From Rhodococcus pseudokoreensis (GTDB lineage: Bacteria; Actinomycetota; Actinomycetes; Mycobacteriales; Mycobacteriaceae), in the NCBI RefSeq assembly GCF_017068395.1, contig NZ_CP070619.1, positions 5,518,001 to 5,582,000 on the forward strand: 64,000 nucleotides of DNA. Direction: 5' to 3'. Numbering within the stretch: position 1 is the stretch's first letter; each line of letters opens with the position of its first letter. A model generated the notes under the pieces. It saw nothing but the letters and a program-made list of their open reading frames with translations. It was not told the origin of the DNA and searched no databases. Both the position numbers and the translations under genes were made by a program. Positions 25,463 to 41,270 of the stretch are shown here, piece after piece.

Positions 25463-25502
25463 AAGTAAGCAAGGTGACGTGCGCCGCAGTGGACGGTAGG
25501 CG

Positions 25503-25865: not shown

Positions 25866-25890
25866 AACACCTTTCGAGGACATGAGCACG

Positions 25891-27351
25891 TCAGCGGAGC
25901 GTCCCCCGCGACGGAGGCGCCACCGCTGCGGCCGGGATGTGGGGAGAGGTGTCGCGCCACTGAACCGGGACGCGGTCCTGCACCAGGCGTCGATAGAGGA
26001 ACAGGAGCACACCGACCGAGAGCAATCCGACCCCGAGTAGCACTTCCTTCCAGCCGCCGGCGTGGGAGAGGTCGGGGTTGAGGACGCCGACGACGAGGAT
26101 GAAGGCGTTGAATACGGTGATGACGGCCGCGACCGGGATCCACTTACGCGACAACCGGATCGGGCGGGGCCAGAGCGGGCGATCCTTGCGCAGCAGGAGG
26201 AATCCACTGACGGCGAGGGTGATCGCCAGAATATAGCCGAGATTGCTGGCAATGAGGATGGCGACCGGGTTGCCGACGACGACCAGAATCAGCAGGTTGA
26301 CGGCCATCGTGATCCACAGTGCCCGGCTGGGGACACCGGCACGGTTGAGCTGATCGAGTTGGCGGATGGACATCTTCTCGGCCGCGATGCCGTATAGGGC
26401 GCGGCCGGCATCGGCGGACGAGGAGACCATGCTCAGGAACAACGCACCGCACAAGATTGCGGTGATGACCCCGGACAAACCGCCGGAAATCGCCTGCACA
26501 CTCGCCACCCCGTAGGTGATGGGATTGTCGGTGATCACAGCCTCCCCGAGTTGGCCTGTGGTCGCGATCGGCACGATCGTGTACGCACCGACCATGAACA
26601 GTGCGATCGACGTCAGCGCCTTCGAGGTGTCGCGACTGGTGTCCTTGTATTCGGGTGCGAAGACGGCGCACAACTCCGAGCCGTAGATCGCCCAGGCGGT
26701 GACATACAGCCAGACGACGAACGTCTTCCAGCCACCGTCGAGGTGGGAGGTCAGATTCGCCGAGTGCCATTGGCCCGTGACGAACGGGCCGATCGCGAGA
26801 ACGGCAAGGACGAGGATGAATGCGGCACCGATGATCTGGTTGAACCTGACGGCCACCTTGATGCCTGCGACGTTGAGGACCGTGCACGCGACGATCGTGA
26901 TCGCCGAGACCAGGTGCGGGAATCCGAACGCGACGCCGGCCAAGGTGAACAGCGTCCACGTCGCGTCAGGGAACCACTGGGCCTGCACCAGCGACCCGAT
27001 GGTCAACCCGACCAGTGAGAGCACCAACGCCCACCCGCACCAGTAGCCGAACGCGGCGAGCGGCCCGAGTGGGGCGAAGTACCGCTTCCACGCCTCGGTC
27101 GCGAACATGGCAACCCCGCCGGGTTTGTCGGGGAACATTGCCGCCACTTCGGAGAAGATCTTGTTCTGCAGAAGGGCGACGGCCGAGAGGATCACGCAGA
27201 TTGCCGCGGCGGGAATCGCGCCGAGCGCGCCGATGACGTATCCGACCGAGACGAACAATCCGGCGGCGATCGGCAGCGCGAGCATGAAACCGTGATACCA
27301 GCGCAGTGTCTTGTGCAATTGGTGTTGTGTTCCGGAAGAGTTCTCGCTCAT
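25891..27351 (-). CDS. APC family amino acid/polyamine permease
   Basis: A 486-residue permease with about twelve membrane helices. The first helix carries GFMLALPIAAGLFVSVGYVIG, similar to the G-rich helix 1 of APC transporters, and PDKPGGVAMFATEAWKR is the helix 2-3 loop. It is not closely similar to the permease at 16962. It lies leftward of the amine oxidase and the small monooxygenase-like protein on the same strand (gaps 31 and 45 bases), so it probably imports the amine oxidised by that enzyme. Confidence 0.88.
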   Translation of the reverse strand: MSENSSGTQHQLHKTLRWYHGFMLALPIAAGLFVSVGYVIGALGAIPAAAICVILSAVALLQNKIFSEVAAMFPDKPGGVAMFATEAWKRYFAPLGPLAAFGYWCGWALVLSLVGLTIGSLVQAQWFPDATWTLFTLAGVAFGFPHLVSAITIVACTVLNVAGIKVAVRFNQIIGAAFILVLAVLAIGPFVTGQWHSANLTSHLDGGWKTFVVWLYVTAWAIYGSELCAVFAPEYKDTSRDTSKALTSIALFMVGAYTIVPIATTGQLGEAVITDNPITYGVASVQAISGGLSGVITAILCGALFLSMVSSSADAGRALYGIAAEKMSIRQLDQLNRAGVPSRALWITMAVNLLILVVVGNPVAILIASNLGYILAITLAVSGFLLLRKDRPLWPRPIRLSRKWIPVAAVITVFNAFILVVGVLNPDLSHAGGWKEVLLGVGLLSVGVLLFLYRRLVQDRVPVQWRDTSPHIPAAAVAPPSRGTLR

Positions 27352-27382
27352 GACTTTTCCTCGCAGTGGGTGGGCGGTGGTG

Positions 27383-27691
27383 TCAGGCGAGCGGACTGAC
27401 GGCGGACTCGGGGTATTCGGTGACTTCGATATCGACGCCGTCGATGACGGCGAACATCTTCATGAACTCGGGGAGGTTGGCGGCGTCGGCGTTGGCGGCG
27501 TCGGCTGCTTCCTTGCTCTCGTAGATCCACAGATCGACCCAGCTGCCGTCGGCGCGCTTGGCGCAGAAGGGGACCGACAGCAATTTCGGATGGGCGACTT
27601 TGACTTCGGTGATCGCTGCCTTGCGGAGTGCGAAAAATTCTTCATCACTCGTCGACAGGGTGAAGGTGACCAGTTCGGCGCAGTACGACAT
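27383..27691 (-). CDS. Small dimeric alpha/beta-barrel-like protein
   Basis: A 102-residue protein of the size and pattern of ABM/EthD-like ferredoxin-fold proteins (beta-alpha-beta pattern AELVTFTLSTSDEEFFALRKAA, then GSWVDLWIYESKEAADAA). Such proteins can be cofactor-free monooxygenases, heme-binding or accessory proteins. It sits between amine oxidase and permease in one operon (gaps 45 and 31 bases), so an accessory role in amine oxidation is plausible. No catalytic residue can be assigned. Confidence 0.7.
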   Translation of the reverse strand: MSYCAELVTFTLSTSDEEFFALRKAAITEVKVAHPKLLSVPFCAKRADGSWVDLWIYESKEAADAANADAANLPEFMKMFAVIDGVDIEVTEYPESAVSPLA

Positions 27692-27736
27692 CAGGGGTCC
27701 TTTTCATTCGAGGAGGGAGAACGGAGGTGGTGTGGG

Positions 27737-29035
27737 TCAGACCAGTTCGGGCAGAATGCGGGCTGCAGCGGTCTTGGCGCTCTCGATCGCGCCGTCGATG
27801 AACCCCGCCCAGCCTTCGGCGTAATCGCTGCCGGCAAGGCGGATGTGGCCGTGCTCGGTGGCGGCGGACTCCTGGACGGCGGCGAGTTGGTTGGGTCGCA
27901 GCATCGGCCAGGTCTGTCCGGACAGCTCGTCGGCGACCCAGTCGTGTCCGTCGACGGCCACAACGTCCAGGTCGGGAATCCATTCGCGCAGAGCGGCTTC
28001 GACGGCGCCACGGTCGGTGACATCGATGCGCGTGGAGTCGGAGCCGAACGCCACGATGAGGCTGTCGCCGTCGATGTCGTACTCGTACTGGAAGAAGTTC
28101 AGAGGGCAGGAGCTGGGGCCGAGTCCGGCGACCTTGCCGATGTCACCCTTGACGCGGACCCATACCTTCACCCCGGTCGAGGCCTGGCCCTCGGTGGCGA
28201 CCGAGACCAGGTCACTGGGCAGCGCCGGGCTGAATTCGACGGTGTTCAGCACGTTCAGGGGGAGGGTGACGATCGCCTTGCGTGCCGTCAGGGTCCGGCC
28301 GCCGTCGACGGTGACGGTGACGCCGTCGTCATCCTGCTCGATCCGGGTGACCCGCGAGTTGAACTGTACGTCTGCGGTGGACTGGGCGGCGATCGCGTCC
28401 AGGAGCGACTTGGTTCCGTTCTTCAGCTTGTACGTCGCGCACGCTTCGAACATCAGCTGCCAGTTTCCGCCCGTCAGCGCGCACCAGCGCAGCGCCTGGG
28501 TGTAGGCACCGACGGCGGGCAGGCCGCTGAAGGACAGGCCCCAGAAGCCTTCGACCAGGTCGTGCTGTTCCTGATCGAGGTTCAGCGCGGCGATCTTCTC
28601 CGCGATGGTGAAGTGGTCGAGTGCCTCGAGCTCGTCGCCGACGGGCCGGAATTGGTACGGGTTGGGAAGTAGCTCCGCGGAGCCGGCCAGCACCCCGGTC
28701 ATGCCCGGGTCCATGAGGGCGAACAGTTGCTCGGCGGTGCCGGTGCGAACTCGACCGTCGGCCCGCCACAGCGCGCGTTCGGCAGTGGGGCTCGACACCA
28801 GGGGAAGGTCGTAGCGGCCGATCTCCGCCCACACGTGTGGCTGGGTCCAATGCACCCAGGTGCCGCCGAAGTCCAGCTTCCGGCCCAGGGCGCTGTCGCG
28901 GGTCCAGGTGCGCCCGCCGAGCCGGTCGCGACCCTCGAGGATCGTGGCGGTGATACCGCGCTGGGTGAGTTCACGGGCGGCGGTGATTCCGGCGAAGCCG
29001 CCGCCGACGATGACGACATCGGTGTCGTAGTTCAT
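27737..29035 (-). CDS. Flavin monoamine oxidase (putrescine-oxidase-like)
   Basis: A 432-residue FAD-dependent amine oxidase that converts primary amines to aldehydes, releasing ammonia and H2O2. FAD-binding VVIVGGGFAGITAARELTQRG starts at residue 7 and is followed by LGGRTWT. The C-terminal FAD motif is RLAGSDYAEGWAGFIDGAIES, where the usual G-x-E-T is replaced by GSDY. No cysteine is visible for covalent flavin at the usual place. AGGAG lies 6 bases before the ATG at 29035; a longer reading is unsupported. With the aldehyde dehydrogenase at 19857 it fits putrescine-type degradation to GABA. Confidence 0.88.
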   Translation of the reverse strand: MNYDTDVVIVGGGFAGITAARELTQRGITATILEGRDRLGGRTWTRDSALGRKLDFGGTWVHWTQPHVWAEIGRYDLPLVSSPTAERALWRADGRVRTGTAEQLFALMDPGMTGVLAGSAELLPNPYQFRPVGDELEALDHFTIAEKIAALNLDQEQHDLVEGFWGLSFSGLPAVGAYTQALRWCALTGGNWQLMFEACATYKLKNGTKSLLDAIAAQSTADVQFNSRVTRIEQDDDGVTVTVDGGRTLTARKAIVTLPLNVLNTVEFSPALPSDLVSVATEGQASTGVKVWVRVKGDIGKVAGLGPSSCPLNFFQYEYDIDGDSLIVAFGSDSTRIDVTDRGAVEAALREWIPDLDVVAVDGHDWVADELSGQTWPMLRPNQLAAVQESAATEHGHIRLAGSDYAEGWAGFIDGAIESAKTAAARILPELV

Positions 29036-29109
29036 GGTGTTCTCCTGGAAGCGAATGAGCAGGGCGAAAGGCACACGAGGAGGTGTCAGAGCAGCGGTCG
29101 AAGCAAACA

Positions 29110-29179
29110 TGTCCAAATGGACAAGTGTGAGCGATGGCACAGAATATGCCTCATCGCGACAAATTGGTCAAGTGGACAA
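29110..29179. promoter_or_regulatory. Candidate TetR operators between amine oxidase and TetR gene
   Basis: TGTCCA-AA-TGGACA at 29110-29123 is a perfect inverted repeat. A weaker relative, TTGGTCAAGTGGACAA, lies at 29164-29179, about 54 bases on. Both share the TGGACA half-site. They lie in the 283-base divergent gap. Confidence 0.6.
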
Positions 29180-29318
29180 CTTTGGTTTCTTTCCGATGGG
29201 CACCTGCCGTAATCTTCATGGCACGCAGATCGCAGCCGTCACAGCTGGGCGTCCCGGATCTGCCGGGCGGTGCGAGACACCGGCGTCACGGCTCTCGAAG
29301 CTCATGGAAAGGAGCGGC

Positions 29319-29909
29319 ATGTCTGCCGTCGAATCGGCCGCCTCGCGTCCGGCGCTTCGCTATGGCGAGAGGCGGACGGCGCTTCTCGCAGCTGCGGTGC
29401 GCGTAGGGGCCGAACAGGGCTTGCGCAATCTCACCTATCGCGCGGTCGCCCGCGAGGCCGGAGTAGCGCACGGTCTCGTCGCGCACCATTTCGGTACCCG
29501 CGATGCGCTACTCGAAGAGGCGCTGCAGTACTCGCTCGCCAAAAGCGTGCCGGCGATCAGCGCACGGCCGGGAAGCGGGGACCTAGACGCGCTCTTCGAA
29601 GGGATCGTGGAGATGGTGCAGACGCTTCCCCACGATCTCGCGTTCCAGTACGAACTGATCCTCGAATCACGGCGGCGGCCGGAGCTGCGGCCACACGTTC
29701 AGTCGCTGTACCGGACGTTCGAGCAAGCCCTCGCCGACGAACTGGCATGCGGGGAGATGGACCTCGACCAGGACTTCGTGCACCTCATCTTCGCCGCCCT
29801 GGACGGTCTGGTCTTCCAGCAGTTGTCGATCGCCGACCCGGAACGGACCGACGCTGCGCTGGCGCACCTGCGTACCCTGCTCGCGCTCGCCGGCCACCGC
29901 TCGACCTGA
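29319..29909 (+). CDS. TetR family transcriptional regulator
   Basis: A 196-residue TetR protein with helix-turn-helix at about residues 20-60 (NLTYRAVAREAGVAHGLVAHHFGTRDALLEEAL) and a helical ligand domain. GGAG is 5 bases before the ATG at 29319; the open frame upstream of it is non-coding leader. It is divergent from the amine oxidase operon, and palindromes between them are probable binding sites. The likely role is repression of the amine oxidase, small protein and permease operon until an amine or its aldehyde appears. Confidence 0.9.
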   Translation: MSAVESAASRPALRYGERRTALLAAAVRVGAEQGLRNLTYRAVAREAGVAHGLVAHHFGTRDALLEEALQYSLAKSVPAISARPGSGDLDALFEGIVEMVQTLPHDLAFQYELILESRRRPELRPHVQSLYRTFEQALADELACGEMDLDQDFVHLIFAALDGLVFQQLSIADPERTDAALAHLRTLLALAGHRST

Positions 29910-30005: not shown

Positions 30006-31655
30006 TCAGCTGTTGGACAGTGACTCCGGCGCCGGCTGGGTATCGAGGTGTGCGGCGGTGAGCGCACCGGACGCAATTTCCTGCTGCACACGGAATTTCT
30101 GGATCTTCCCGGACGGTGTCATGGGGAGTGCGTCGGTGAAGTACCACAGCGACGGCGTCTTGTGGGCCGCGATTCGGTCGCGGCACCAGGCTTTCAATTC
30201 GGTCGGGTCCGGTGGATTGGCGGGGTCCGCCGGTCGCACGACGGCGCCGATTTGCTCGCCCCATCGGGTGTCCGGAACCCCGACGATCGCAACCTCGGCC
30301 ACGTCGTCGTGCCGGAACAGCAGTTCTTCGATCTCGCGGGGATAGATGTTCATGCCGCCACGAATGATCATGTCTTTGAGGCGGCCGGTGATGCGGAGGA
30401 AGCCTCGTTCGTCCATCGTTGCGAGATCACCCATGTACAGCCATCCGTCGGCGTCGATGGTGGCGGCGGTCTCGTCGGGCATCTCGGAGTAGCCGAGCAT
30501 CGTCTGGTAGCCACGACAGCATATTTCGCCCTGTTCACCGATCGGGACGATCTCCTGGGAGACGGGGTCGATGATCTTCACTTCCAGTTCCGGCAGCGGC
30601 TGTCCGACGGTGGTGGCCTGATCGGCCGGATCGTCGGTGACTCGGGTCTGGCTGATGACGCCGTGCATCTCGCTCTGCCCGAACAGGATCGTGACTTGGC
30701 AGTCGAGTTCGTCGAGCACCCGTTCGACGAGTGCCTGGGGAACTGCTGACGCGCCGGACAGCACGGTGTGGAGGCTCGACAAGTCGCGTGTTCCGCGGTC
30801 CGGGTGCTCGAGAAGCGCGATGAGCATCGTCGGGACCATCAGCGAGTGTGTTCCGCGGTAGGCCTCGAGCATCTCGAGCATGAGCGCGGCGTCGAAGCCG
30901 GGTAGCACCACAAAGGTTCCGTGTGCCGCGAACGTCCCGAGTTCGGTTACGGCACCGCCCCCGATGTGGTACATCGGCATTGCGTTGACGCAGACGACGT
31001 GGTCCACCAGCCCGGCCCGCTCGAACACGAACGTGGCTTCGTTGACGATTCCTTTGTGATGCAGCAGTGCGCCTTTGGGGAAACCGGTGGTTCCGGAGGT
31101 GTATTGAATCTGCACCGGGGCGGTGGGTGCGACAGCGGGTAAGTCACTTGCCGGATCCGCGGTCGCGATGAAGGACTGCCACTCGCTGGGCGTCACGACC
31201 ATGCGGAGTTCAGGGAGTGACGGCCGTACTTCCGCCAGGACCGCCGTGAGGTCCGCGCCGCGATAGCTTTCCCGGTAGAAGAGCCCGACCGAGCGGGACT
31301 GGCGAAGGATGTACTCGAGTTCGTGGGCGCGGTAGGCGGGGTTCACGCCCACCACCACCATCCCGGCCATCGCGATCGCTTGCTGAAGGATGACCCACTC
31401 CGCACTGTTGGGCGCCCAGATCGCGATCCGGTCTCCGGGCGCGAAGTGGGCCAGCAGTGCCCTGGCTGCCTTCTCGGTGTCGGCGAGGAGTTGACGGTAC
31501 GTCCACTCTCGCCGGTCGGCCGGATCGGGAGATCCGTCGACCAGGGCGAGGCGGTCGGGTACCGCCGACGCGGCCTCTCGCAGCAGGTCGCCGACGGTGA
31601 TGTCGCGGACGCCGGAGCTCGGTGTCGCCGGCCAAAGAGACTTTTCGAGGGGCAT
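30006..31655 (-). CDS. AMP-forming acyl-CoA synthetase
   Basis: A 549-residue adenylate-forming ligase (FadD type). P-loop-like YTSGTTGFPKGALL is at about residues 185-198. The adenylate motif is GYSEMPDETA, with DGWLYMGDLATMDERGFLRITGRLKDMIIRGGMNIYPREIE as the hinge and C-terminal domain start. The catalytic Lys is in PMTPSGKIQKFR. It lies downstream of the SDR/dehydratase genes on the same strand with a 177-base gap, so it may activate the acid that feeds that system. The substrate is unknown; medium-chain or aromatic 2-hydroxy acids would fit the context. Confidence 0.9.
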   Translation of the reverse strand: MPLEKSLWPATPSSGVRDITVGDLLREAASAVPDRLALVDGSPDPADRREWTYRQLLADTEKAARALLAHFAPGDRIAIWAPNSAEWVILQQAIAMAGMVVVGVNPAYRAHELEYILRQSRSVGLFYRESYRGADLTAVLAEVRPSLPELRMVVTPSEWQSFIATADPASDLPAVAPTAPVQIQYTSGTTGFPKGALLHHKGIVNEATFVFERAGLVDHVVCVNAMPMYHIGGGAVTELGTFAAHGTFVVLPGFDAALMLEMLEAYRGTHSLMVPTMLIALLEHPDRGTRDLSSLHTVLSGASAVPQALVERVLDELDCQVTILFGQSEMHGVISQTRVTDDPADQATTVGQPLPELEVKIIDPVSQEIVPIGEQGEICCRGYQTMLGYSEMPDETAATIDADGWLYMGDLATMDERGFLRITGRLKDMIIRGGMNIYPREIEELLFRHDDVAEVAIVGVPDTRWGEQIGAVVRPADPANPPDPTELKAWCRDRIAAHKTPSLWYFTDALPMTPSGKIQKFRVQQEIASGALTAAHLDTQPAPESLSNS

Positions 31656-31832
31656 GATGCAATCCTGCCTTCGGGCTGTGCGGGGTGGGGGAGTTGGTGG
31701 AGCGTGAGGTGCTCGTGACGAGGAAGCCGGAGTCGGCTGCGAAGTGGTGTCTCAGTCACCACGCAATGTAATACATATGTGGAGCTGATCGCTATGAATC
31801 CGTCAAAATAGTGTGGGCGAGCTGAGGAGCCC

Positions 31833-32633
31833 TCACCCCGCCGAGATACCGCCATTCGGGCTGACCGCTTGACCGGTGATCCGACGGGCCTGAGGGCTGC
31901 ACAGGAACAGCACGAGGTCGGCCACGTCGACCGGCTCGGCGACCCCCAGTGACGCCAGTCCGGTGGCCTTCGCGAAGAGCTTGGCGCTGAACGGCTCGGC
32001 CATGACACGGTCGTAGGCGCCGGTGTCGCGGATGAGCGACGGCGTCACCGCGTTGACGCGGATACCGTCGCGCTTGGCCTCCATCGCAAGGGTTTTGGAG
32101 AACATCACGATGGCGGCCATGGCCGCGCCGATGACGGATTCTCCCGGGGTCGGATGCTTCGCCGCGTCGGAGGCGATGTTCACGATCGCGCCGCCGTGCT
32201 TCGCCCGCATGTGTGGAAGTACGGCCCGGCACATGTTGATCGGGCCGAGCGCCTGCTGCAGCAGGATCGACGGAACGGCTTCGGGGGGCGTGTCGTGGAA
32301 CAGTCGGGGCGTGAACGCGCTCACCGTGCTGTTGATCAGGACATCGGCAGGCCCCAGCGAGGCCGACAGTTCCTCGGTCACCCGCGCGGCCTCGGCGGGC
32401 TCGTTCACATCGCCTGCGGCGAAGAAGGCCCAGACACCCGAAGCGAGTGATCGAATCTCCGCCGCCGCCTTCTCGCCGCGTTCGGTGTTGCGGCCGACCA
32501 GACCGATGCGCTGGGTGCCCGCCCGGACCAACTGACGGGCGACCTGCAGGCCTACGCCGCTCGTCCCGCCCACGATGTAGACGGTCGCCTCGGACAGGTC
32601 TGGTACCCAGACTTCGGGTGTGTCTGTGGTCAT
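31833..32633 (-). CDS. SDR-fold protein lacking the catalytic Tyr and Lys
   Basis: A 266-residue short-chain dehydrogenase-fold protein. The nucleotide motif GGTSGVG and the C-terminal ITGQAVSPNGG are kept, as is Ser155 in NIASDAA. The usual YxxxK has become Ile168...Met172 (ESVIGAAMAA), and the NNAG motif reads INST. It therefore probably cannot carry out normal SDR chemistry. It overlaps the activase gene by 4 bases (ATGA), so it is co-translated with the dehydratase system. It may be a structural or substrate-binding partner, or use another chemistry. Confidence 0.85.
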   Translation of the reverse strand: MTTDTPEVWVPDLSEATVYIVGGTSGVGLQVARQLVRAGTQRIGLVGRNTERGEKAAAEIRSLASGVWAFFAAGDVNEPAEAARVTEELSASLGPADVLINSTVSAFTPRLFHDTPPEAVPSILLQQALGPINMCRAVLPHMRAKHGGAIVNIASDAAKHPTPGESVIGAAMAAIVMFSKTLAMEAKRDGIRVNAVTPSLIRDTGAYDRVMAEPFSAKLFAKATGLASLGVAEPVDVADLVLFLCSPQARRITGQAVSPNGGISAG

Positions 32634-33607
32634 CGGATGTTCCTCTGCAGTTCGAGGGGCACCGGTTCGCCGGTGCCCGGATGGGAATGGCCGGGCCTGC
32701 CGTCGCAGTCCTGGCAGTGCGGAGTCGCGCTCGACAGGCTCGCCTGGAACTGCTCTTCGGTCGCGGAGTCGGACGACGTCGGCGCCTCAGCGGTGCCCGC
32801 GTAGTCGTCACGGGCCAGCAGTCCGGCGCCGTACGCACCCGCGATCTGTGGTTGATCGAGTAATTCCACCGGGTGGCCCAGCGCCTGCGCGACGTGAAGA
32901 CGCGCGGCCGGGTTCTTCGCCACTCCGCCCGTCATCACCGTCGGTGTCGCCTTGCCGACTTGCGCCACCAGTCCGAGTGTGCGCGCCGCGACCGCTTTGT
33001 GCACCGACGCGGCGATGTCCGCCTTCTCGCGGCCCTGCGCCAGTAGTGAGATCACCTCGGTCTCCGCGAAGGTCGCGCACATACTGCTGACCTCGAGGCT
33101 GTCGGAACCGGCGAGCGCGAGTTCGCCGACCGCGCCGATGTCGACTTCCAGTGCCCGCGCCAGCACGTCGAAGAAGCGGCCGGTCCCGCTCGCGCACCGG
33201 TCGTTCATGGCGAACCGTTCCACGAGACCGTCGTCGTCGACGATGATGGCCTTGCTGTCCTGTCCGCCGATGTCGATAACCAGCCGCACACCCGGGTGCA
33301 GGGCGGCGGCGCCTCGGGCGTGGCAAGTGATTTCGGTGAACGTCCGGTTCGCCCCGGGCACCAGCTTGCGCCCGTAGCCGGTGCTGATGGTCCGCCGGAT
33401 GTCGGTGTGCGCGACACCGGCGGCCGCCATCGCCCCGTCCATTGCGCGCGCGACCGCTTCGCGGCTCACGGCTCCCATCTGCACGACACTCGATCCGCGC
33501 AGGGCGCCGTCCTGGTCCACGACGGCTGCCTTCGCCGTGGTGGACCCGAGATCGACGCCCATGACGAACCAACCGTGTGTGGTTTTGTCTGAGGAGGTGG
33601 CAGCCAT
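32630..33607 (-). CDS. ATP-dependent activase of 2-hydroxyacyl-CoA dehydratase / benzoyl-CoA reductase family
   Basis: A 325-residue BcrA/BadF/HgdC-type activase of the ASKHA ATPase fold. The phosphate-1 motif VMGVDLGSTTAKAA is at residues 15-28 and the adenosine-side DIGGQDSKAI at 112-121. The two cysteines that in the family hold a [4Fe-4S] cluster at the dimer interface are Cys138 (NDRCASGTGRF) and Cys177 (SSMCATFAETEVISLL). The protein injects one electron, driven by ATP, into the dehydratase. A Cys/His-rich tail (HCQDCDGRPGHSH) beyond residue 295 is unusual for the family. It abuts the alpha-subunit gene directly. Confidence 0.92.
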   Translation of the reverse strand: MAATSSDKTTHGWFVMGVDLGSTTAKAAVVDQDGALRGSSVVQMGAVSREAVARAMDGAMAAAGVAHTDIRRTISTGYGRKLVPGANRTFTEITCHARGAAALHPGVRLVIDIGGQDSKAIIVDDDGLVERFAMNDRCASGTGRFFDVLARALEVDIGAVGELALAGSDSLEVSSMCATFAETEVISLLAQGREKADIAASVHKAVAARTLGLVAQVGKATPTVMTGGVAKNPAARLHVAQALGHPVELLDQPQIAGAYGAGLLARDDYAGTAEAPTSSDSATEEQFQASLSSATPHCQDCDGRPGHSHPGTGEPVPLELQRNIR

Positions 33608-34948
33608 CTAGATCACGGACTTCATCCGTTGCACGTCGATGGCCTCGAGCATCGCCTCCAGTCGACTGTCGAACAGTTCGTCGTTGTAGAACGACGCGTC
33701 GGCGACGTCGCCTTCGAAGAAGAACGACTTGACGCCGCGCTCCGTCTCGGCAGCGCGGGCGAGCATCGTCTGCGGATTGGTCATCGCCCGGCACGTCCGC
33801 GTCGAGTGGAACGCGATCCCGTCGATCGCGTATTCGTCCAGCCGGCGGAGCAGGAGTTCCTGCAGGTTCTTCAATCCGTGGTTCAGTGGGCAGAGCAGGT
33901 AGTGCTGCGCCATGCCCAGGAGTGGATTGTCGACGTCGATGAGTTGTGGTTCCTGCCAGAAGGATTCGTGGGTGTAGCGGCCGGCGACGACGGCGACGTC
34001 GTACTCCGCGAACTTCCGGGTGAGGAAGCCGAGCTTGTTCCAGTTCATGATGCCGTCGAAATACACGCGGTAGCGTTCGTCCGCGACCGCGCTGACCCCG
34101 TCGGTGACCCGCTGCTGAATTTCGGCCTTCACGCCGGCGAAATAGTCCACCAGCGCCTGACTGCCGGGCAGGAAGTTGATCGGGGCGATGCTCGCGACCC
34201 AGTCCCAGTAGGTCGCGGGCGTGGGTGCCTGCGTGCACAGCGCCATTCCTTCGAGGCGCAGCTCGGAGGCCCGTTTGATGTAGGACATGCTCTCGCTGAG
34301 TCCATCCCAGTCGAACGGTCTGCCGGTCTGGTGTTCGAGGAAGGCGATGAGTTCGCGCAGTTGCCCTTCGACGTACTTGCTCACCTCGGTCCACTCCTCG
34401 CCCCGCATGTACCCGGCGTCGGGTTTGTTGCCCCACAGCATGGGGATCGAGACGTTGAACAGCGGGAGCTTGCGATCGAACACCCGATACGTCATCGCGT
34501 CCCATTGCTGACCGGTGCTGCATCCGGCGTAACCGTTGACGAAGAAGTCGGGGGCAGGCAGTTTGCTCGCCAATTCCTGCTGGTCGACCATGCCGACCAC
34601 GCCGGTCTCCCGGTCGGCCGCGGTTTGGTGTGTCAGCACGGCGCAGCCCAGATGTGTTCGCGCATACGAGCAGAGCTCACCGATGTAGCCGTACTCGGCG
34701 CCGGCGGCCTGGGCGGGCCCTTCGAGGTGCTGGGCGGCCAGTCGAGCGGCGAACGCCTCGCCGTGGCACCATTCCAGGCCCGCGGCCTGGAACAGCGGGT
34801 TCAGTGCGGCGCCGTTGTACCAGACGACGTGCTTCCCGCGTTCCTTGGCGGTGAAGATGTTCTCCCAATAGTCGGCCACCAACTTGCCGCCGACTCGCGT
34901 ACTCGACAAGCGGCGGGTCTTTTCCTTGCTGATCTCTTCGATCGCCAT
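33608..34948 (-). CDS. 2-hydroxyacyl-CoA dehydratase subunit (D-component family), subunit A
   Basis: A 446-residue member of the HGD-D family, which holds a [4Fe-4S] cluster in each subunit of the dehydratase or class I benzoyl-CoA reductase. Family cysteines are visible at Cys93 (IGELCSYARTH), Cys143 (YAGCSTGQQW) and Cys386 (STRTCRAMTN). It is larger than its partner, as HgdA/FldB-like or BcrC-like subunits are. Activase and partner subunit genes flank it (0 and 28 bases), giving the gene set of a dehydratase with a single activase. The electron donor is not encoded nearby. The substrate is not known. Confidence 0.9.
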   Translation of the reverse strand: MAIEEISKEKTRRLSSTRVGGKLVADYWENIFTAKERGKHVVWYNGAALNPLFQAAGLEWCHGEAFAARLAAQHLEGPAQAAGAEYGYIGELCSYARTHLGCAVLTHQTAADRETGVVGMVDQQELASKLPAPDFFVNGYAGCSTGQQWDAMTYRVFDRKLPLFNVSIPMLWGNKPDAGYMRGEEWTEVSKYVEGQLRELIAFLEHQTGRPFDWDGLSESMSYIKRASELRLEGMALCTQAPTPATYWDWVASIAPINFLPGSQALVDYFAGVKAEIQQRVTDGVSAVADERYRVYFDGIMNWNKLGFLTRKFAEYDVAVVAGRYTHESFWQEPQLIDVDNPLLGMAQHYLLCPLNHGLKNLQELLLRRLDEYAIDGIAFHSTRTCRAMTNPQTMLARAAETERGVKSFFFEGDVADASFYNDELFDSRLEAMLEAIDVQRMKSVI

Positions 34949-34976
34949 GGCGAACTCCTCTGAGTGAAAGTCGAAT

Positions 34977-36149
34977 TCAGGACGGGACGGGTGCGAGCTG
35001 ACGGCGAATGCGCTCCACGAAGGTCTCGATCTTGGTGCGGAGTGTCTCGACGGGGTTGCCTTCGTGCTCGGTCTCGAGGAGCAGCAGCGGTATCCCGTGC
35101 GCGTCGAGTGCCTTGCGCAACTCCGGGTAGTAGAGCATGTGGGGTTCGCAGAACTTCGCCATCAGGACGACGACACCGTTCGCGCGGCTCTTCTCGAGTG
35201 AGTCGATCAAATAGGTGTCCCAGTCGACTCCGACGGTGACCCGTGTCGGGCAGGGGGCGTTGTCGTTACGGTCCAGGTACCACTCCGACAGCGCGTCCAG
35301 TGGATCGCCGTGCTCGGGGACGTAGGTCGAGATGTACCGGAAACCGGTGTACAGGTCGTCGTCGACGACGATCACTCCGGATTCCTCGATCACATCGAGG
35401 ACCTCGGGGCGCGGGGCGTGGCAGAAGTGACCGGAGAGATGCAACCGCACCAGATCGTCGAGTGCGTCGGCACTCGGGTCGAGCCGGACCAGAAGCCCGT
35501 TCAGGGCGGCATTGTGTTCGTCGATGTCCATCACCATGCTCGACTTCACCAATACCTGCATGTCGCTCGCAGTGATGCGCGCACGGCCCGTGCGCCGCAG
35601 GTCGTAGAGCTCCCGGAGCAGGCGTCGATTCGTGTTGAACAGCCGAATGCTCTCGGCGAGAGACTCGTCCGTGATCGTCGCCCCGACGACACCCTCGATC
35701 TCGAGCTTGAGTTCGTGCACGCGCCCCGCGACCCGCGGCTTGGTCCACGGATCGTCCATCGCGCTGGTGAACTGCGCGAAGTGCACCGGTTTCTCGGGCC
35801 GCGCCCAGCGGATCACGTCGACGGCGCCGAGGAGTTGCACGCAGTGATCGGCGGCGACGAAGCCGTCGAAGACATCGAGTTCACCGACCGCGGCCTGATC
35901 GGCGACGCTGCGGGTGTAGCCGCAGTAGAACTCGGCAAGCAGGTTGCGTCCCTCCGTGATCGGGGTGCGGCTTTCCTGGACGATCACCGGCAACGCACCG
36001 GCGGCGTGCACGATCTCGGAGGGAAAGTTCATCGGAAAAGAACCGATCACGCGGTTCCCGTGCTTCGTTTTCCATGCCTGCGCGTATGCGACCGGGTCAT
36101 CGGCCGCCGCACGCAGCGACGACATGACGGTCGGATCCAGTTCGTTCAC
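34977..36149 (-). CDS. 2-hydroxyacyl-CoA dehydratase subunit (D-component family), subunit B
   Basis: A 390-residue HGD-D family protein, partner of the preceding subunit. Cysteines in family-typical settings are Cys76 (AEFYCGYTRS), Cys103 (VAADHCVQLLG) and Cys334 (LMAKFCEPH, near the C-terminus before a domain ending in LLLLETEHEG). It is the first gene of the leftward operon. The 161-base gap to the divergent racemase gene is AT-rich near 36219-36250 and probably contains both promoters. Whether it dehydrates 2-hydroxyacyl-CoA or reduces an aromatic thioester cannot be settled from the sequence. Confidence 0.88.
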   Translation of the reverse strand: MNELDPTVMSSLRAAADDPVAYAQAWKTKHGNRVIGSFPMNFPSEIVHAAGALPVIVQESRTPITEGRNLLAEFYCGYTRSVADQAAVGELDVFDGFVAADHCVQLLGAVDVIRWARPEKPVHFAQFTSAMDDPWTKPRVAGRVHELKLEIEGVVGATITDESLAESIRLFNTNRRLLRELYDLRRTGRARITASDMQVLVKSSMVMDIDEHNAALNGLLVRLDPSADALDDLVRLHLSGHFCHAPRPEVLDVIEESGVIVVDDDLYTGFRYISTYVPEHGDPLDALSEWYLDRNDNAPCPTRVTVGVDWDTYLIDSLEKSRANGVVVLMAKFCEPHMLYYPELRKALDAHGIPLLLLETEHEGNPVETLRTKIETFVERIRRQLAPVPS

Positions 36150-36310
36150 ATCCAGCCCTTCGACTTCGTGGACGGATACACCCCGACGACTGACGAACTG
36201 CGCCGCGGCGACCTGACTTGAGATATTACGTTATTGGATAGATAGTAGCCAGAGTTGTCAAACATTGATTGTGGGGAGAACCCACGTCGTCCGTCGTTCG
36301 GAGGCTCCTG

Positions 36311-37417
36311 ATGAAACATGTGCTCGATGGATTGCGGGTCGTCGAACTCGCCGGGATCGGCCCGTCGCCCCACGCCGCGATGCAGCTCGCGGACCTCGGC
36401 GCCGAGGTCGTGCGAATCGAGCGTCCAGGGGGCGTGACGCAGTTGCTGCCCGTGGACAAGGATGCGGGACTGCGTAATCGACGCTCGGTGAGTGCCGACC
36501 TGAAGGACCCCGCCGACCTGGCGAGGATCCTGAAGCTCGTCGACAAGGCCGACGTCCTCATCGAGGGTTACCGGCCGGGTGCGGCGGAGCGGCTGGGCAT
36601 CGGTCCCGACGTGTGCCGTCAGCGGAACCCTCGGCTCGTGTACGCCAGGATTACCGGTTGGGGCCAGGACGGCCCGCTCGCGCCCTATGCCGGGCACGAC
36701 ATCAATTACCTTGCGCTCACAGGTGCGCTGAATGCCATCGGACGGGACGGTGATAGGCCGCACGCACCGCTCAACCTGGTCGCCGACCTGGGCGGCGGTT
36801 CGATGCCGGCGGTCACCGGCATTCTCGGCGCCCTGTACGCGAGGGAGCGGACAGGTGCCGGAGACGTGGTCGATATCGCGATGGTCGACGGGGTGAGTGC
36901 GCTCATGACGATGTTCTGGACGCTCACCGAGAACGGGCTCTGGTCCGATCGGCGGGGGACCAACGTCATCGACGGCGGGGCGCCCTTCTACGACACGTAC
37001 GAGTGCGCCGACGGTCGGTACATCGCGGTCGGCGCCGTCGAGCCCGTCTTCTATGCGCAGCTTCTGGCGGGACTCGAACTCGACCCCGCGGGTCTGCCGG
37101 ACCAGTACGACGAGTCGGCATGGTCGACGCTCCGGAAGACCTTCGCCGACGTCTTCGTCACGCGCAGTCGGGAGGAGTGGGTGCAGGCGTTCGCGCACCT
37201 CGACGCGTGCGTGACGCCGGTGCTGGCCCTCGCCGAGGTGCCGGACCACCCGCACATCGCCGCGCGCAACACGGTCGTGACCGCGTTCGGACAGCGTCAG
37301 CCGGCCGCGGCGCCCCGCTTCGCCGAGGCACCGCCCGCAACCTATGCGTCGCCCCGCACACCCGGCGCCGACACCGAGGCCGTCTTCCGGGACTGGGGTG
37401 TCGATGACGATCGGTGA
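36311..37417 (+). CDS. Alpha-methylacyl-CoA racemase-like (CaiB/BaiF family)
   Basis: A 368-residue CaiB/BaiF-family protein. It is closest to alpha-methylacyl-CoA racemases: His129 in YAGHDINYLALTGAL and Asp159 in LNLVADLGGGSM match the racemase catalytic pair, and ECADGRYIAVGAVEP follows. A CoA-transferase of this family would have its Asp in a different context. GGAGG lies 6 bases before the ATG at 36311. It is divergent from the dehydratase operon, so it may set the stereochemistry of a 2-substituted acyl-CoA used there. That link is inference. Confidence 0.85.
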   Translation: MKHVLDGLRVVELAGIGPSPHAAMQLADLGAEVVRIERPGGVTQLLPVDKDAGLRNRRSVSADLKDPADLARILKLVDKADVLIEGYRPGAAERLGIGPDVCRQRNPRLVYARITGWGQDGPLAPYAGHDINYLALTGALNAIGRDGDRPHAPLNLVADLGGGSMPAVTGILGALYARERTGAGDVVDIAMVDGVSALMTMFWTLTENGLWSDRRGTNVIDGGAPFYDTYECADGRYIAVGAVEPVFYAQLLAGLELDPAGLPDQYDESAWSTLRKTFADVFVTRSREEWVQAFAHLDACVTPVLALAEVPDHPHIAARNTVVTAFGQRQPAAAPRFAEAPPATYASPRTPGADTEAVFRDWGVDDDR

Positions 37418-37466
37418 CCAGGGTCTGCAGGGGTGTTGTGGCAGCCGGTCGACCTGATGCGCGACG

Positions 37467-38336
37467 ATGACACTCATGTCTGACTCGAAGCCGTCCGACG
37501 CGAAACCGGCGTCCACCCCCGACAAGGAAGTGGCGTCGACCGGAAGCGCGCGGTCGGTCCTCGTCACGGTGCTCGGCGAACTCGTCGAACCGTACGGACA
37601 GCCGGTGCGGACGGCCGCGCTTCTCTACGTCCTCAAGGGACTCGGGTACGGGGAGCATGCCGCCCGGCAGGCGATTGCGCGCACAGGTTCCGCCGGTCTG
37701 ATCGCCGCCGACCGGAACGGACGCGAAACGCAGTGGACGTTGACCGACAAGGCGCATCGGCTCTTCACCGAAGGTGAACTTCGTGTCTTCTCCACCGACG
37801 TCGACACCACGCAGTGGGACGGCAGGTGGCTCGTCGTGAACGTGCCGATTCCGGAGTCGCACCGCTCGACCCGCAAGAAGCTCTATGCCGCGCTGCGGTG
37901 GGCAGGATTCGGGAACCCGACACCCGGCGTCTGGGTCACCCCCCACGTCGACCGTGCCGCCGAAGCTGAGAGAACCATCGAGTCTCTCGGACTGACCGCC
38001 AATACGGTCTCGTTCGTCGGGACGCTCGCCGTCCCCGGGATTCCCGAGAACGAACTCGTCCGCCGCTCATGGGATCTGGAGGCCGCCGAGAAGGAGTACG
38101 ACGAACTGCTCGACCGCTTCGACGCGCGCACGTTCGAACCGGGCGACGAGTTGCTGTTCGCCCACCTCCAACTCGCGGACGCGCTGCGGCGCATGCCGTA
38201 CATGGATCCGCGGCTCCCCGAGGTGCTGCTGCCGGACTGGCGCGGGCTGAAAGCCGCCCGGCGACTGCGGGACCTACGCGCCGAGTGGACCCCCACCGCT
38301 CACGCGCACTGGCGCCGGATCGCCGGTCTCGGCTGA
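37467..38336 (+). CDS. PaaX family transcriptional regulator
   Basis: A 289-residue PaaX-like regulator. The N-terminal winged helix is at about residues 30-95 (SVLVTVLGELVEPYGQPVRTAALLYVLKGLGYGEHAARQAIARTGSAGLI in pieces), with a central domain DGRWLVVNVPIPESHRSTRKKLYAALRWAGFG and a C-terminal PaaX domain (LPEVLLPDWRGLKA). PaaX proteins sense aryl-CoA thioesters such as phenylacetyl-CoA. The start at 37467 or 37476 cannot be decided because no Shine-Dalgarno is seen. Its position next to the racemase and dehydratase genes suggests an aromatic or related CoA ester as effector. Confidence 0.87.
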   Translation: MTLMSDSKPSDAKPASTPDKEVASTGSARSVLVTVLGELVEPYGQPVRTAALLYVLKGLGYGEHAARQAIARTGSAGLIAADRNGRETQWTLTDKAHRLFTEGELRVFSTDVDTTQWDGRWLVVNVPIPESHRSTRKKLYAALRWAGFGNPTPGVWVTPHVDRAAEAERTIESLGLTANTVSFVGTLAVPGIPENELVRRSWDLEAAEKEYDELLDRFDARTFEPGDELLFAHLQLADALRRMPYMDPRLPEVLLPDWRGLKAARRLRDLRAEWTPTAHAHWRRIAGLG

Positions 38337-38687: not shown

Positions 38688-40124
38688 TCATCGCACGTCG
38701 AGGTAGATGCTCTTGAGCTGCTGGTAGCTCGCGAGGCCCTCGGGTCCGAGTTCGCGGCCGAGGCCGCTGTTCTTGATGCCGCCGAAGGGGGCGGTCGGGT
38801 CGTTGGAGTAGCCGTTGATCCCGACCGTTCCGCTGGCGACGCCCCGGGCGAATTGTGCGCCGCGTTCGGGGTCCGCGGTCCAGATGGAGCCGCCGAGTCC
38901 GTAGTCGGAGTGGTTGGCGATCGTGAGGGCTTCGGCCTCGTCGGTGTAGGGGATGACCGACAGGACGGGCCCGAAGATTTCTTCCTGTGCGATCGTGTGG
39001 CCGGTCTCGACGTCGGCGAAGACGGTGGGTTCGACGAACCATCCGTGTTCGGCGTCGGCGGGTCTGCGGCCGCCGGTGGTGACGCGTCCGCCGTCCGAGC
39101 GGCCCTTCTCGATGTATCCCTCCACGCGGTCGCGCTGCCGGGACGAGACGAGCGGTCCCATCTGGGTGGTGTCGGACAGCGGGTCGCCGACCGACAGGCC
39201 CTTGGCGAGGTCGGTGATGGTGTCGACGATCTCGTCGTAGCGTGAGCGGGGCGCGAGGACGCGGGTGCCGAGCCAGCAGATCTGCCCGTTGTTGAGCAGG
39301 GTGGCGGCGTAGAACGACTCGATGTTCGCGGCGAGGTCGGCGTCGTCGAGGACGACGGCGGCGGACTTTCCGCCGAGTTCGAGGGTGACGGGGCGCAGCA
39401 GTTCGCCGCAGGTGCGGCCGATGGCGCGTCCGGCGCCGGTGGAGCCGGTGAAGGAGACCTTGTCGATCCCGGGGTGGGCCACGAGATATGCGCCGAGGTC
39501 GCGTCCACCGGGGACGATGTTGACCACGCCGGCGGGGAGTCCGGCGGCGATGGCGGCTTCGGCCATCAGGAATGCGTCGAGCACCGTTTCGGGGGACGGT
39601 TTGAGGACCACGGTGCAGCCGGCGGCGAGGGCAGGGGCGAGTTTGAGGAACGTGATGGCCTGCGGCACGTTCCACGGGACGATGGCGCCGACCACGCCGA
39701 TCGGGGAGCGGGTGACGAGTGTGGAGCCGCCGAGCATGCCGGGCCGGATCTCGTCTTCCTGGTTCGCCGCCATGTCGCCGTAGTAGCGCAGCAGGACCGG
39801 TGGGAACCCGCCCTCGAACTGCCGGGCAAGGGTGATGGGCATCCCGTTCTGGCTGCTGACCCGCGTGGAGGTGTCCTCGGCGCGGGCTTGGAGTTCGTCG
39901 GCGAACCGGTTCAGCACCTCGGCGCGCTGGGCCGCGGTCCACGACGCCCACTGGGTGAGCGCGGCGCGGGCGGCGTCGACGGCATCGTCGATGTCGGTTT
40001 CGGTGCCCTCCGGCACGGAGCCGATGCGCTGCTCGGTGGTGGGGGAGATGACCGGGATCGTCGAGTCGCCGGCGGGCCGGGTCCATCCGCCGCGGATGTA
40101 GAGATCGGGGTAGTCGATCGTCAT
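38688..40124 (-). CDS. Aldehyde dehydrogenase (P450 cluster)
   Basis: A 478-residue NAD-dependent aldehyde dehydrogenase. Catalytic Cys is in LNNGQICWLGTRV and the general base in TLELGGKSAAVV. IVPWNVPQAITFLKLAPALAAG is the cofactor region. It is the last gene of a leftward operon P450-reductase-alcohol dehydrogenase-aldehyde dehydrogenase and would oxidise the aldehyde produced from the P450 alcohol to an acid. The same order of activities occurs in the Pseudomonas terpineol operon (terpB). Confidence 0.92.
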   Translation of the reverse strand: MTIDYPDLYIRGGWTRPAGDSTIPVISPTTEQRIGSVPEGTETDIDDAVDAARAALTQWASWTAAQRAEVLNRFADELQARAEDTSTRVSSQNGMPITLARQFEGGFPPVLLRYYGDMAANQEDEIRPGMLGGSTLVTRSPIGVVGAIVPWNVPQAITFLKLAPALAAGCTVVLKPSPETVLDAFLMAEAAIAAGLPAGVVNIVPGGRDLGAYLVAHPGIDKVSFTGSTGAGRAIGRTCGELLRPVTLELGGKSAAVVLDDADLAANIESFYAATLLNNGQICWLGTRVLAPRSRYDEIVDTITDLAKGLSVGDPLSDTTQMGPLVSSRQRDRVEGYIEKGRSDGGRVTTGGRRPADAEHGWFVEPTVFADVETGHTIAQEEIFGPVLSVIPYTDEAEALTIANHSDYGLGGSIWTADPERGAQFARGVASGTVGINGYSNDPTAPFGGIKNSGLGRELGPEGLASYQQLKSIYLDVR

Positions 40125-40163
40125 CGGGGTGTCCTTATCGGAAAGGTTCGGAAGGTGGGGTCG

Positions 40164-41270
40164 TCAGTCGTGCAGGAGCACGGGTTTGAGGACTTCGCCG
40201 CGGTGCTGGGCGTCGATCGCGTCGTTGATCTTCGCGAAGGGGAAGGTGGTGACGAGCTTGTCGAGCGGGAACTTCCCGGCCTTGTACAGCTCGACGAGTT
40301 CGGGGATGAACTCGTCGGGGACGCTGTCGCCCTCGATGATTCCGGTGATCGTCAGCCCCATGGCGAGGGAGTTGATGATGTTCAGCGGCACCGAGGCTGC
40401 GGGGTCGGCGGGCACCCCGATGAGGCCGATCTTGCCGTGGAAGGTCATGGCGCCGACGAGTGATTCGATGACGGCGGGGACGCCGGAGGTGTCGATCGCG
40501 TAGTCGACGCCGGCGGGGATGATCGCGCGGACCTGCTCGGCCAGCGGACCGGCAGCGGGGTCGAGGACATGGGTCGCGCCGAGTTCGAGGGCGAGGTCGC
40601 GCCGCGACTGGTGCGGTTCGACGGCGATGATGGTGGTGCAGCCCTGCACGACGGCGCCCATGACGGCGGCCAGCCCGACCGATCCGGCACCGGCGACGAG
40701 GATCGCGGATCCGGGTCGGCAGTCGAGGGAGCGCATGACGGCGCCGGCGCCGGTCTGGATTCCGCAGCCGAGCGGAGCGAGGAGTTCGGCGGGAACGTCG
40801 GCGGGAACCTTCACGACGTTGCGTTCGAACGCGAGGCTGTAGGTGGCGAACGAGGACTGTCCGAAGAACAGGCCGGTCAGGGATTCGCCGTCCGTGGTCG
40901 ACAGCGGACCCGTGCCGTCTTCGCGTACTCCGTCGTAGGCGAGGTGCATGAACTGGTGACAGTAGGACGGTGCCCCGGTGGTGCACGAGGGGCAGGTCCC
41001 GCAGCTGTTGAAGGTGATGGCGACGCGGTCGCCGGCGGCGACCTTCGTGACGTCGTCGCCGACTGCGCGGACGAAGCCGCAGCCTTCGTGGCCGAGGACC
41101 GCGGGCAGCGCGGTGGGGAGGGCGCCGTCGCGGGCAGCGAGGTCGGTGTGGCAGATGCCGACCGCTTCGATTTCGACGAGGACCTCGCCGGTCTTCGGTT
41201 CGTCGATGGTGATCGTTTCGAGCGAGAACTCCGTGTGGGGTTCTCTCGCGACTGCTGCGAGTGCTTCCAT
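40164..41270 (-). CDS. Zinc-dependent alcohol dehydrogenase (aryl/allylic alcohol type)
   Basis: A 368-residue medium-chain dehydrogenase of the benzyl-alcohol dehydrogenase group. The catalytic zinc site is formed by Cys in GICHTDLAARDG and the GHEGCGFV His/Glu. The structural zinc loop is CGTCPSCTTGAPSYC. The Rossmann motif is GAGSVGLAAVMGA. GGAG lies 9 bases before ATG 41270; ATG 41285 is an alternative. It would oxidise a primary alcohol made by the P450 to the aldehyde. Confidence 0.9.
   Translation of the reverse strand: MEALAAVAREPHTEFSLETITIDEPKTGEVLVEIEAVGICHTDLAARDGALPTALPAVLGHEGCGFVRAVGDDVTKVAAGDRVAITFNSCGTCPSCTTGAPSYCHQFMHLAYDGVREDGTGPLSTTDGESLTGLFFGQSSFATYSLAFERNVVKVPADVPAELLAPLGCGIQTGAGAVMRSLDCRPGSAILVAGAGSVGLAAVMGAVVQGCTTIIAVEPHQSRRDLALELGATHVLDPAAGPLAEQVRAIIPAGVDYAIDTSGVPAVIESLVGAMTFHGKIGLIGVPADPAASVPLNIINSLAMGLTITGIIEGDSVPDEFIPELVELYKAGKFPLDKLVTTFPFAKINDAIDAQHRGEVLKPVLLHD

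Follow-up and report, generated by a model that had tools for sequence, protein, structure and literature searches.

Radical acyl-CoA enzymes powered by ATP are regarded as belonging to anoxic life, given how sensitive their clusters are to oxygen. What, then, might such an enzyme do in a presumably aerobic Rhodococcus species, beside genes whose products use oxygen? This question is raised by a 64,000-nucleotide stretch of the Rhodococcus pseudokoreensis genome (contig NZ_CP070619.1, positions 5,518,001 to 5,582,000; hereafter the window), in which a five-gene minus-strand operon (30006–36149) encodes two HGD-D subunits, an activase, a short-chain dehydrogenase/reductase (SDR), and an acyl-CoA ligase. 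An earlier annotation made from the sequence alone (the original prediction) had described a single-activase system of the class I benzoyl-CoA reductase/2-hydroxyacyl-CoA dehydratase (BCR/HAD) family next to oxygenase-based genes. That observation is real, and understated. The 9.87-Mb genome (six contigs) contains only these two HGD-D genes and a single activase above cut-off, and a cytochrome P450 gene set lies nearby. Beyond what had been described, the operon is accompanied by racemase and PaaX-type genes (36269–38336), by P450, ferredoxin, reductase, alcohol dehydrogenase, and aldehyde dehydrogenase genes (38688–44542), and by Bad/Ali-type genes (47773–63625 and past the window). We tentatively favor, at a little less than even confidence, the reading that the operon product is a working BCR/HAD-family radical acyl-CoA enzyme, powered by ATP, that would reduce a ring, most likely that of a (substituted) benzoyl-CoA, within a ring-opening route.

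The first gene encodes the small HGD-D subunit, HGC (34977–36149, minus strand as for the whole operon; 390 aa, GTG start), whose best solved match is MbdN of 3-methylbenzoyl-CoA reductase. It is followed after 28 bp by the large, presumed catalytic HGD-D subunit, HGB (33608–34948; 446 aa), and, with a spacing of 0 bp, by the ATP-dependent activase (32630–33607; 325 aa). The start of the SDR gene (31833–32633; 266 aa) overlaps the activase stop by 4 bp, and the acyl-CoA ligase gene (30006–31655; 549 aa; Pfam AMP-binding) follows after 177 bp; the SDR and the ligase are thus part of the same tightly spaced operon as the HGD-D genes, as had been claimed. Pfam bit scores for HGD-D (224.8 and 156.6) and for the BcrAD_BadFG domain of the activase (179.9) lie far over the cut-off, and each subunit has three cluster cysteines, which places the system in the BCR/HAD superfamily; the HAD pattern of two HGD-D subunits with a single activase holds across the genome. 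The closest solved relatives of the ligase (feruloyl-CoA, salicylate, and fatty-acid enzymes) fix no substrate, and this line was dropped. In the Nocardia, Gordonia, R. ruber, and Rhodococcoides loci, HGB is conserved at about 88–92%, versus about 71–80% for HGC and the activase; in the closest Rhodococcus loci, HGB differs little in this respect from its partner proteins.

The cluster cysteines and the activase had been called intact, and family-wide alignments agree. Cys93, Cys143, Cys386, and Glu64 of HGB are invariant in 42 of 42 aligned sequences, and Glu64 aligns with Glu55 of HadB and Glu65 of BzdO. The small subunit keeps Cys76, Cys103, Cys334, and Cys300 in all 79 sequences (81 clustered family members minus two duplicate loci of the window), and Cys243 in 78 of them. 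Cys300 aligns with BzdN Cys293, which the relevant passages of one paper list among six double-cubane cluster ligands (PMC11971306); HadC likewise has a Cys there. Cys243 has a Cys counterpart in all six Bcr/Mbd small subunits compared (MbdN and five BcrC proteins) and none in HadC, BzdN, YjiM, and a Fusobacterium and a Rhizobium protein. Thus, the small subunit keeps more than three conserved cysteines, yet not the Bzd set. The large subunit carries a G-x-x-N-W motif, as BcrB does. BzdO His131 was considered as a reductase marker and dropped, as MbdO and BcrB also lack it by alignment. In the Had-like pair of Fusobacterium vincentii (L162:3920-5068), the small subunit lacks all three cluster cysteines, with Tyr, Asp, and Asn aligned at these positions.

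The activase retains its cluster residues Cys138 and Cys177, together with the DLGST, DIGGQD, and GG motifs that include its ATP motifs, in 58 of 58 sequences (the 60 clustered members without a duplicate and a sequence of at most 240 aa). It ends in a C-terminal extension of ~55 residues (residues 271–325; 32633–32797, minus strand) that bears a Cys298-x2-Cys301 pair. Cys298 is present in 56 and Cys301 in 55 of the 58 activases, the exceptions being two sequences with a gap at the pair and one with Phe at 301. When 7999 database homologues are ranked by their similarity to this activase, C-x2-C occurs after residue 262 in 118 of the best 120, the remaining two being shorter proteins; those of the 120 that carry a name are actinobacterial. 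Most proteobacterial family activases among the sequences listed have C-x3-C. The five matching solved activases span 243–276 aa, and the tail region is unaligned to them. Outside the family, the scanned loci contain 35 activases (BcrA, Fusobacterium, Rhizobium, and YjiL proteins and many from Actinomycetota genomes); beyond the aligned domain, two of them have a single Cys and none has two. We know of no description of this tail; as a guess, it might serve as a redox switch, a metal site, or a shield tied to aerobic life.

As for the electron supply, no ferredoxin for the system had been noticed nearby, and the CX2CX2CX3C (4Fe-4S) motif is indeed absent from open reading frames of at least 40 aa within 22–52 kb of the window. 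Of the ferredoxins found, the closest to the operon is of the 2Fe-2S type (44120–44542, plus strand), and its gene adjoins that of the P450. Elsewhere, the genome encodes a member of the 2-oxoacid:acceptor oxidoreductase family (643 bits, above cut-off).

Position of the family within the superfamily

The original prediction had preferred the dehydratase pattern to that of benzoyl-CoA reductases. Both groups were compared with the family in a two-subunit tree of 31 taxa and 804 columns, comprising 19 family members; solved Had, Mbd, and Bzd enzymes; five BcrB loci, out of six that exceed the NCBIfam cut-off, with their BcrC; the Fusobacterium pair; a Had-like relative (L158); the Rhizobium pair; and YjiM as the outgroup for both subunits. 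The 19 family members form one clade (support 100) outside a group that unites Had with Bcr/Mbd (support 96); in single-subunit trees, the latter node has support of 56 (large) and 89 (small). In the approximately unbiased (AU) test, placement outside Had and Bcr/Mbd gave p = 0.903, grouping with Bzd 0.187, and grouping with Bcr/Mbd 0.174; grouping with Had gave 0.032, a rejection that is weak because of long branches and only three Had or Had-like references. The Kishino-Hasegawa (KH) and Shimodaira-Hasegawa (SH) tests reject none of these four groupings.

Similarity scores point both ways. The small subunit matches MbdN (140.5 bits) above HadC (135.7) and BzdN among solved structures, and BcrC (169.1 of a cut-off of 421.2) above HadC (154.1 of 700) and BzdN (132.0 of 453.8) among NCBIfam models. 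For the large subunit, the NCBIfam scores are 142.2 of 750 for HadB, 88.1 of 486.6 for BcrB, and 61.1 of 448.6 for BzdO; missing the HadB and HadC cut-offs is weak evidence because these models describe one specific enzyme. The double-cubane cluster protein model NF040772 gives 136.1 and 30.9 of 350 bits, and two different subunits are present here. Database names for the relatives are split between '2-hydroxyacyl-CoA dehydratase' and 'benzoyl-CoA reductase'. Since the scores point both ways and neither group includes the family in the tree, assigning it to one of them is not justified; the separate placement suggests a lineage of its own beside the Had dehydratases and the Bcr/Mbd benzoyl-CoA reductases, and the label "2-hydroxyacyl-CoA dehydratase" is not secured. 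What stands of the earlier preference is the subunit count, as Had and Fld enzymes have two subunits and a single activase, and HadB as the best match of the large subunit; the small subunit, its Cys243, and the tree do not bear it out.

(R)-2-Hydroxyisocaproyl-CoA dehydratase (HadBC with HadI; 3o3m, 4eht) shares two HGD-D subunits with three cluster cysteines each, the single activase, and the catalytic-subunit glutamate, but HadBC is only ~25–26% identical to the window pair, and HadI (276 aa) lacks the Cys-pair tail. In 3-methylbenzoyl-CoA reductase (MbdONQP; 9g87, 9gai), Cys250 of MbdN corresponds to Cys243, within a G-x-F-C-x2-P motif common to both, and the Bad-type genes around the operon are a further likeness to Bcr-type systems; identity to the Mbd/Bcr proteins is 20–29%, and those enzymes have two different activase subunits versus one here. 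BzdNO (8s02) belongs to the same superfamily and shares the catalytic Glu65 and BzdN Cys293, and differs in its six-Cys site, its His131, and the number of activases. The double-cubane cluster protein and YjiM share the superfamily and the activase principle, at 16–23% identity.

A candidate ring-reducing route and its competitors

Divergent from the operon lies a gene for an alpha-methylacyl-CoA racemase-like protein (36269–37417, plus strand). A HadA/FldA-type CoA-transferase role for this CaiB-family gene was dropped, as it scores 442 bits to a solved racemase versus 114 to the best CoA-transferase chain. It is followed by a PaaX-family regulator (37467–38336, plus), a family found in 35 of 50 actinobacterial loci. 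The next four genes, all on the minus strand, encode an aldehyde dehydrogenase (38688–40124; best models of StyD type, below cut-off), a zinc alcohol dehydrogenase (40164–41438; best model an NDMA-dependent enzyme, below cut-off), whose true start is probably internal because its reading frame overlaps the next gene, a ferredoxin reductase (41329–42558), and a P450 of the P450tol/P450terp type (42563–43885; 684 and 479 bits, respectively), which is identical to P450tol at 287 of 436 aligned residues (66%). P450tol and P450terp belong to the CYP108 family. A review credits another member, CYP108N12 of R. globerulus, with hydroxylating the methyl group of p-cymene, limonene, and p-xylene (PMC11279926), and a further source has it initiating p-cymene metabolism in that species (PMC11889516).

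Further along, on the plus strand, lie genes for an enoyl-CoA hydratase family protein (46753–47664), an AliA-like (cyclohexanecarboxylate) CoA ligase (47773–49455; 407 bits, cut-off 792), an acyl-CoA dehydrogenase (55677–56843), a thiolase (57592–58785), a CoA-transferase of the butyryl-CoA:acetate type (58734–60023; below cut-off), an HMG-CoA-lyase family protein (60004–60966; above a subfamily cut-off), a BadH-like SDR (60945–61763; 303 bits, cut-off 431), a MenB/BadI-type hydrolase family protein (61782–62723; badI 275 bits, cut-off 468), to which context assigns a ring-hydrolase role, and a second enoyl-CoA hydratase family protein (62513–63625). Another triad of dienoyl-CoA reductase, acyl-CoA dehydrogenase, and BadI-like genes lies 5.6–8.8 kb beyond the window end. 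Two of the genome's five close MenB/BadI-type genes (at least 45% identity) fall within 40 kb of HGB; simple arithmetic puts the chance of this, for 40 kb on either side, at ~0.0007, the distance having been picked after the fact. On the R. ruber plasmid pmega_1, counterparts of the set at 57592–63625 (thiolase, CoA-transferase, HMG-CoA lyase, SDR, menB, and enoyl-CoA hydratase) are followed within 31 kb by PaaX, the racemase, HGC, HGB, the activase, the SDR, and the ligase, with some other genes in between.

We infer from this neighborhood the logic of a ring acid that is made by an oxygenase, activated with CoA, reduced to the enoyl level, hydrated, oxidized, and cleaved. If the acid is aromatic, a BCR-type step would be the natural missing link, and the dienoyl- and enoyl-CoA reductases would then have a task, as they do in the route of Rhodopseudomonas. 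In the proposed sequence of events, the P450 and the alcohol and aldehyde dehydrogenases would turn p-cymene into an acid, and the operon ligase would make a cyclic acyl-CoA, for example 4-isopropylbenzoyl-CoA. A low-potential ferredoxin from general metabolism, possibly supplied by the 2-oxoacid:acceptor oxidoreductase, would reduce the activase, which would fire single electrons, spending ATP, into the small subunit and from there into the [4Fe-4S] cluster of the large subunit, where the ring, most likely that of a (substituted) benzoyl-CoA, would be reduced. Dienoyl- and enoyl-CoA reductases would further reduce the resulting dienoyl-CoA, which would then be hydrated; the BadH-like SDR would oxidize the product, the BadI/MenB-type hydrolase would cleave the ring, and beta-oxidation would end the route. 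Possibly, then, an ATP-driven radical acyl-CoA reductase dearomatizes an alkylbenzoyl-CoA and feeds an oxygen-independent ring opening inside an aerobe. The fullest version of this proposal is a further BCR/HAD branch that tolerates oxygen or is shielded from it, a 'Birch' reductase with a single activase that acts on P450-derived alkylbenzoyl-CoA (p-cymene to 4-isopropylbenzoate) ahead of O2-free ring opening, with the Cys-pair tail as part of the adaptation; we consider this version as a whole rather unlikely.

The ring-opening part of this route has precedents. In Rhodopseudomonas, cyclohexanecarboxylate and aromatic compounds have the bad-ali pathway in common, according to one study (PMC9795900), and aerobic bad-ali pathways for cyclohexanecarboxylate, with AliA/AliB/BadH/BadI-type steps in common with the window, are described or proposed in passages on Rhodococcus (R. 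aetherivorans chcpca, PMC5906575; PMC9795900) and on Aromatoleum sp. CIB (PMC9795900). Because such pathways are already reported in Rhodococcus, oxygen-independent ring opening in these aerobes is not new; what differs is that the bad-ali passages name no HGD-D or activase gene (PMC5906575, PMC9795900), whereas the window pairs paralogous ring genes with a BCR/HAD-type enzyme. Titles and abstract openings in the open-licence literature yielded no description of a BCR/HAD system in an aerobic actinobacterium, an absence of little weight.

Ring genes recur around the relatives of the operon, which come from 74 loci, of which 50 are actinobacterial and 24 proteobacterial. All presence counts are minimum values, as the flanks extend no more than 10 kb to each side (60 of the 74 loci are longer than 15 kb) and the simple gene caller overlooks some genes. 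Each neighbor family takes its name from one to three members, whose scores, apart from MenB, fall under the curated equivalog cut-offs; the loci are not independent, and the counts are raw. With these limits, the 74 loci include 55 with the activase, 54 with the SDR, 49 with the ligase, 35 with PaaX, and 27 with the racemase, as well as 18 with an AliB-type dehydrogenase, 15 with a BadI/MenB-type and 15 with a 2,4-dienoyl-CoA-reductase-type protein, 13 with a FabK-like protein, and 10 with a P450 (from Rhodococcus, Rhodococcoides, Nocardia, Nocardioides, and Pseudonocardia). At least one of four ring-type families occurs in 35 of 74 loci (31 of the 60 long ones), and at least two occur in 18. 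The FabK-like flavin enoyl reductase gene (L033:7638-8702) directly adjoins, and is divergent from, the small HGD-D gene in 8 of its 13 loci.

A number of observations weigh against a benzoyl-CoA-reducing role. None of the four ring families is present in 39 of the 74 loci (29 of the 60 longer than 15 kb), a BadI/MenB or FabK protein occurs in 0 of 24 proteobacterial loci, and the P450 is missing from 64 of 74. The names AliB, BadH, BadI, and dienoyl-CoA reductase rest on scores under curated equivalog cut-offs, and the protein at 61782–62723 exceeds two MenB cut-offs. Class I benzoyl-CoA reductases are defined by two different activases, and the genome has one above cut-off; to our knowledge, every benzoyl-CoA reductase has two different activase subunits, and dehydratases have one. 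Only four of BzdN's six double-cubane Cys positions are Cys in the small subunit: the six-Cys [8Fe-9S] site is incomplete because Pro stands at the position of BzdN Cys36 in 79 of 79 sequences and Tyr, Phe, or Trp replaces Cys263. The large-subunit family does not conserve BzdO His131; it has HadB-like G-I and Y-x-H positions, its best score among solved structures is to HadB (127.8 bits, versus 95.9 for MbdO and 87.4 for BzdO), and Cys243, shared with Bcr/Mbd, is also Cys in the Had-like relative L158. The KH (p = 0.096) and SH (p = 0.133) tests do not reject grouping with Had. As to substrates, aerobes normally use dioxygenases for such acids. The P450 might possibly serve limonene, whose acid needs no dearomatization; CYP108N12 accepts limonene too, as the review passages state (PMC11279926).

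Several of these points feed the main rival, a Had/Hgd-like 2-hydroxyacyl-CoA dehydratase working by a ketyl radical with catalytic ATP, which we regard as a serious though minority possibility. Here, the ligase would make a 2-hydroxyacyl-CoA, perhaps alicyclic or branched, the racemase would set the alpha-carbon, and the enoyl-CoA would pass to beta-oxidation and ring cleavage. A single activase serving two subunits, the HadB likeness of the large subunit in structure matches, shared positions, and NCBIfam scores (142 versus 88 bits for BcrB), and the dehydratase names among its public relatives all fit. Yet the small subunit scores nearer MbdN/BcrC, the AU test, unlike KH and SH, rejects the Had grouping, the nearest CaiB-family gene is racemase-like rather than a HadA-type CoA-transferase, no obvious source of a 2-hydroxyacid was seen, and the dienoyl- and enoyl-CoA reductases nearby would be left unexplained.

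A second rival concerns conditions and could be combined with any activity: an ordinary anaerobic-type enzyme, expressed only under oxygen limitation in low-oxygen niches. Some carrier genera (Paracoccus, Azoarcus) are denitrifying, but many others (Rhodococcus, Nocardia, Gordonia, Brevibacterium, Zhongshania) are aerobic, and the co-located first step, the P450, requires oxygen; we find this doubtful, to much the same degree as the dehydratase. Less probable still is an ATP-driven reductase for a non-aromatic cyclic or conjugated acyl-CoA that is hard to reduce, such as a terpenoid or polycyclic dienoyl-CoA. The distinct lineage in the tree would accommodate such an enzyme, and the racemase and the AliB/BadH/BadI-type neighbors fit saturated rings; a related cluster of Azoarcus sp. 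KH32C moreover contains DUF1302, DUF1329, and MMPL genes, of a kind that serves to take up bulky, hydrophobic substances. For most such steps, however, ordinary flavin or SDR reductases would do, and such families are present nearby. A non-catalytic or decaying paralogue is very improbable, with no point found in its support and with ligands and ATP motifs kept across genera, long intact reading frames, and conserved neighbors.

Distribution of the module

A scan of 84,980 species genomes gave the 74 loci from the best 80 of 81 encoded relatives; at most 65 genomes stand behind them, because several loci share one genome (nine pairs). Carriers include Rhodococcus, Nocardia, Gordonia, Amycolatopsis, Nocardioides, Pseudonocardia, Citricoccus, and Brevibacterium, as well as Sphingopyxis, Novosphingobium, Paracoccus, Mesorhizobium, and Zhongshania, and the lineage is found mainly in aerobic genera. 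The system is accessory within its genus (9 of 28 genomes, this one included) and its taxonomic family (16 of 301 genomes including this one, of which one is a weak match of 28% identity). Plasmid copies occur in R. ruber (91%), Rhodobacteraceae QY30 (67%), Sphingopyxis macrogoltabida (66%), and Azoarcus sp. KH32C (49%). Given this patchy spread and the plasmid copies, the system looks like a mobile yet conserved catabolic module rather than a passing acquisition. Loss of cluster ligands or absence from relatives, either of which the original prediction had said would count against it, was not found: the ligands are kept, and relatives occur within the genus and among the 74 loci.

Three questions become testable with this lineage, which is conserved though patchily spread in aerobes and combines an activase architecture of its own with a ring-degradation context: whether such chemistry can work in air, in what way the activator is protected, and whether reductive dearomatization of rings takes place in some aerobes. 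If the fullest version of the proposal holds, the route would be a hybrid aerobic/anaerobic pathway in which alkylbenzoyl-CoA made with the help of a P450 is dearomatized in aerobes. The lineage could, in addition, yield a hardier enzyme for Birch-type reductions.

Some carriers have more than one HGD-D pair. The R. jostii genome of locus L007 holds an extra divergent pair (G429:C23:100211-102489; 127 and 99 bits) besides two family pairs. In L047, L063, and L052, two pairs lie in tandem or close together with no called activase between them, and three of six proteobacterial genomes examined have six HGD-D genes; one activase may be shared by successive steps.

Further observations on relatives and neighbors

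A molybdopterin oxidoreductase gene (named from L070:12431-14617) recurs near proteobacterial HGD-D genes, in L070, L048, L054, and L061. The related block on the Azoarcus sp. KH32C plasmid (L077), whose large subunit is 49% identical to HGB, lies near AMP-binding and YCF48-related genes as well as the DUF1302, DUF1329, and MMPL genes. On a Rhizobium leguminosarum plasmid (L163:3613-9041), an HGD-D pair that forms a deep branch of the tree is followed downstream by two activase genes, with an ABC substrate-binding gene in between, and the locus continues with bile-acid:sodium symporter and rhodanese genes.

Within the R. pseudokoreensis genome, a second P450, 68% identical to that of the window, lies 55 kb further along (L088:14058-15428, about 34 kb past the window) and adjoins ligase-like and aldehyde-dehydrogenase-like genes. 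On the other side of the operon, the stretch at 16962–29909 of the window encodes an amino acid permease, an aldehyde dehydrogenase, MFS and EamA transporters, a flavin amine oxidase, and a TetR regulator, and these amine and amino-acid genes possibly constitute a separate set.

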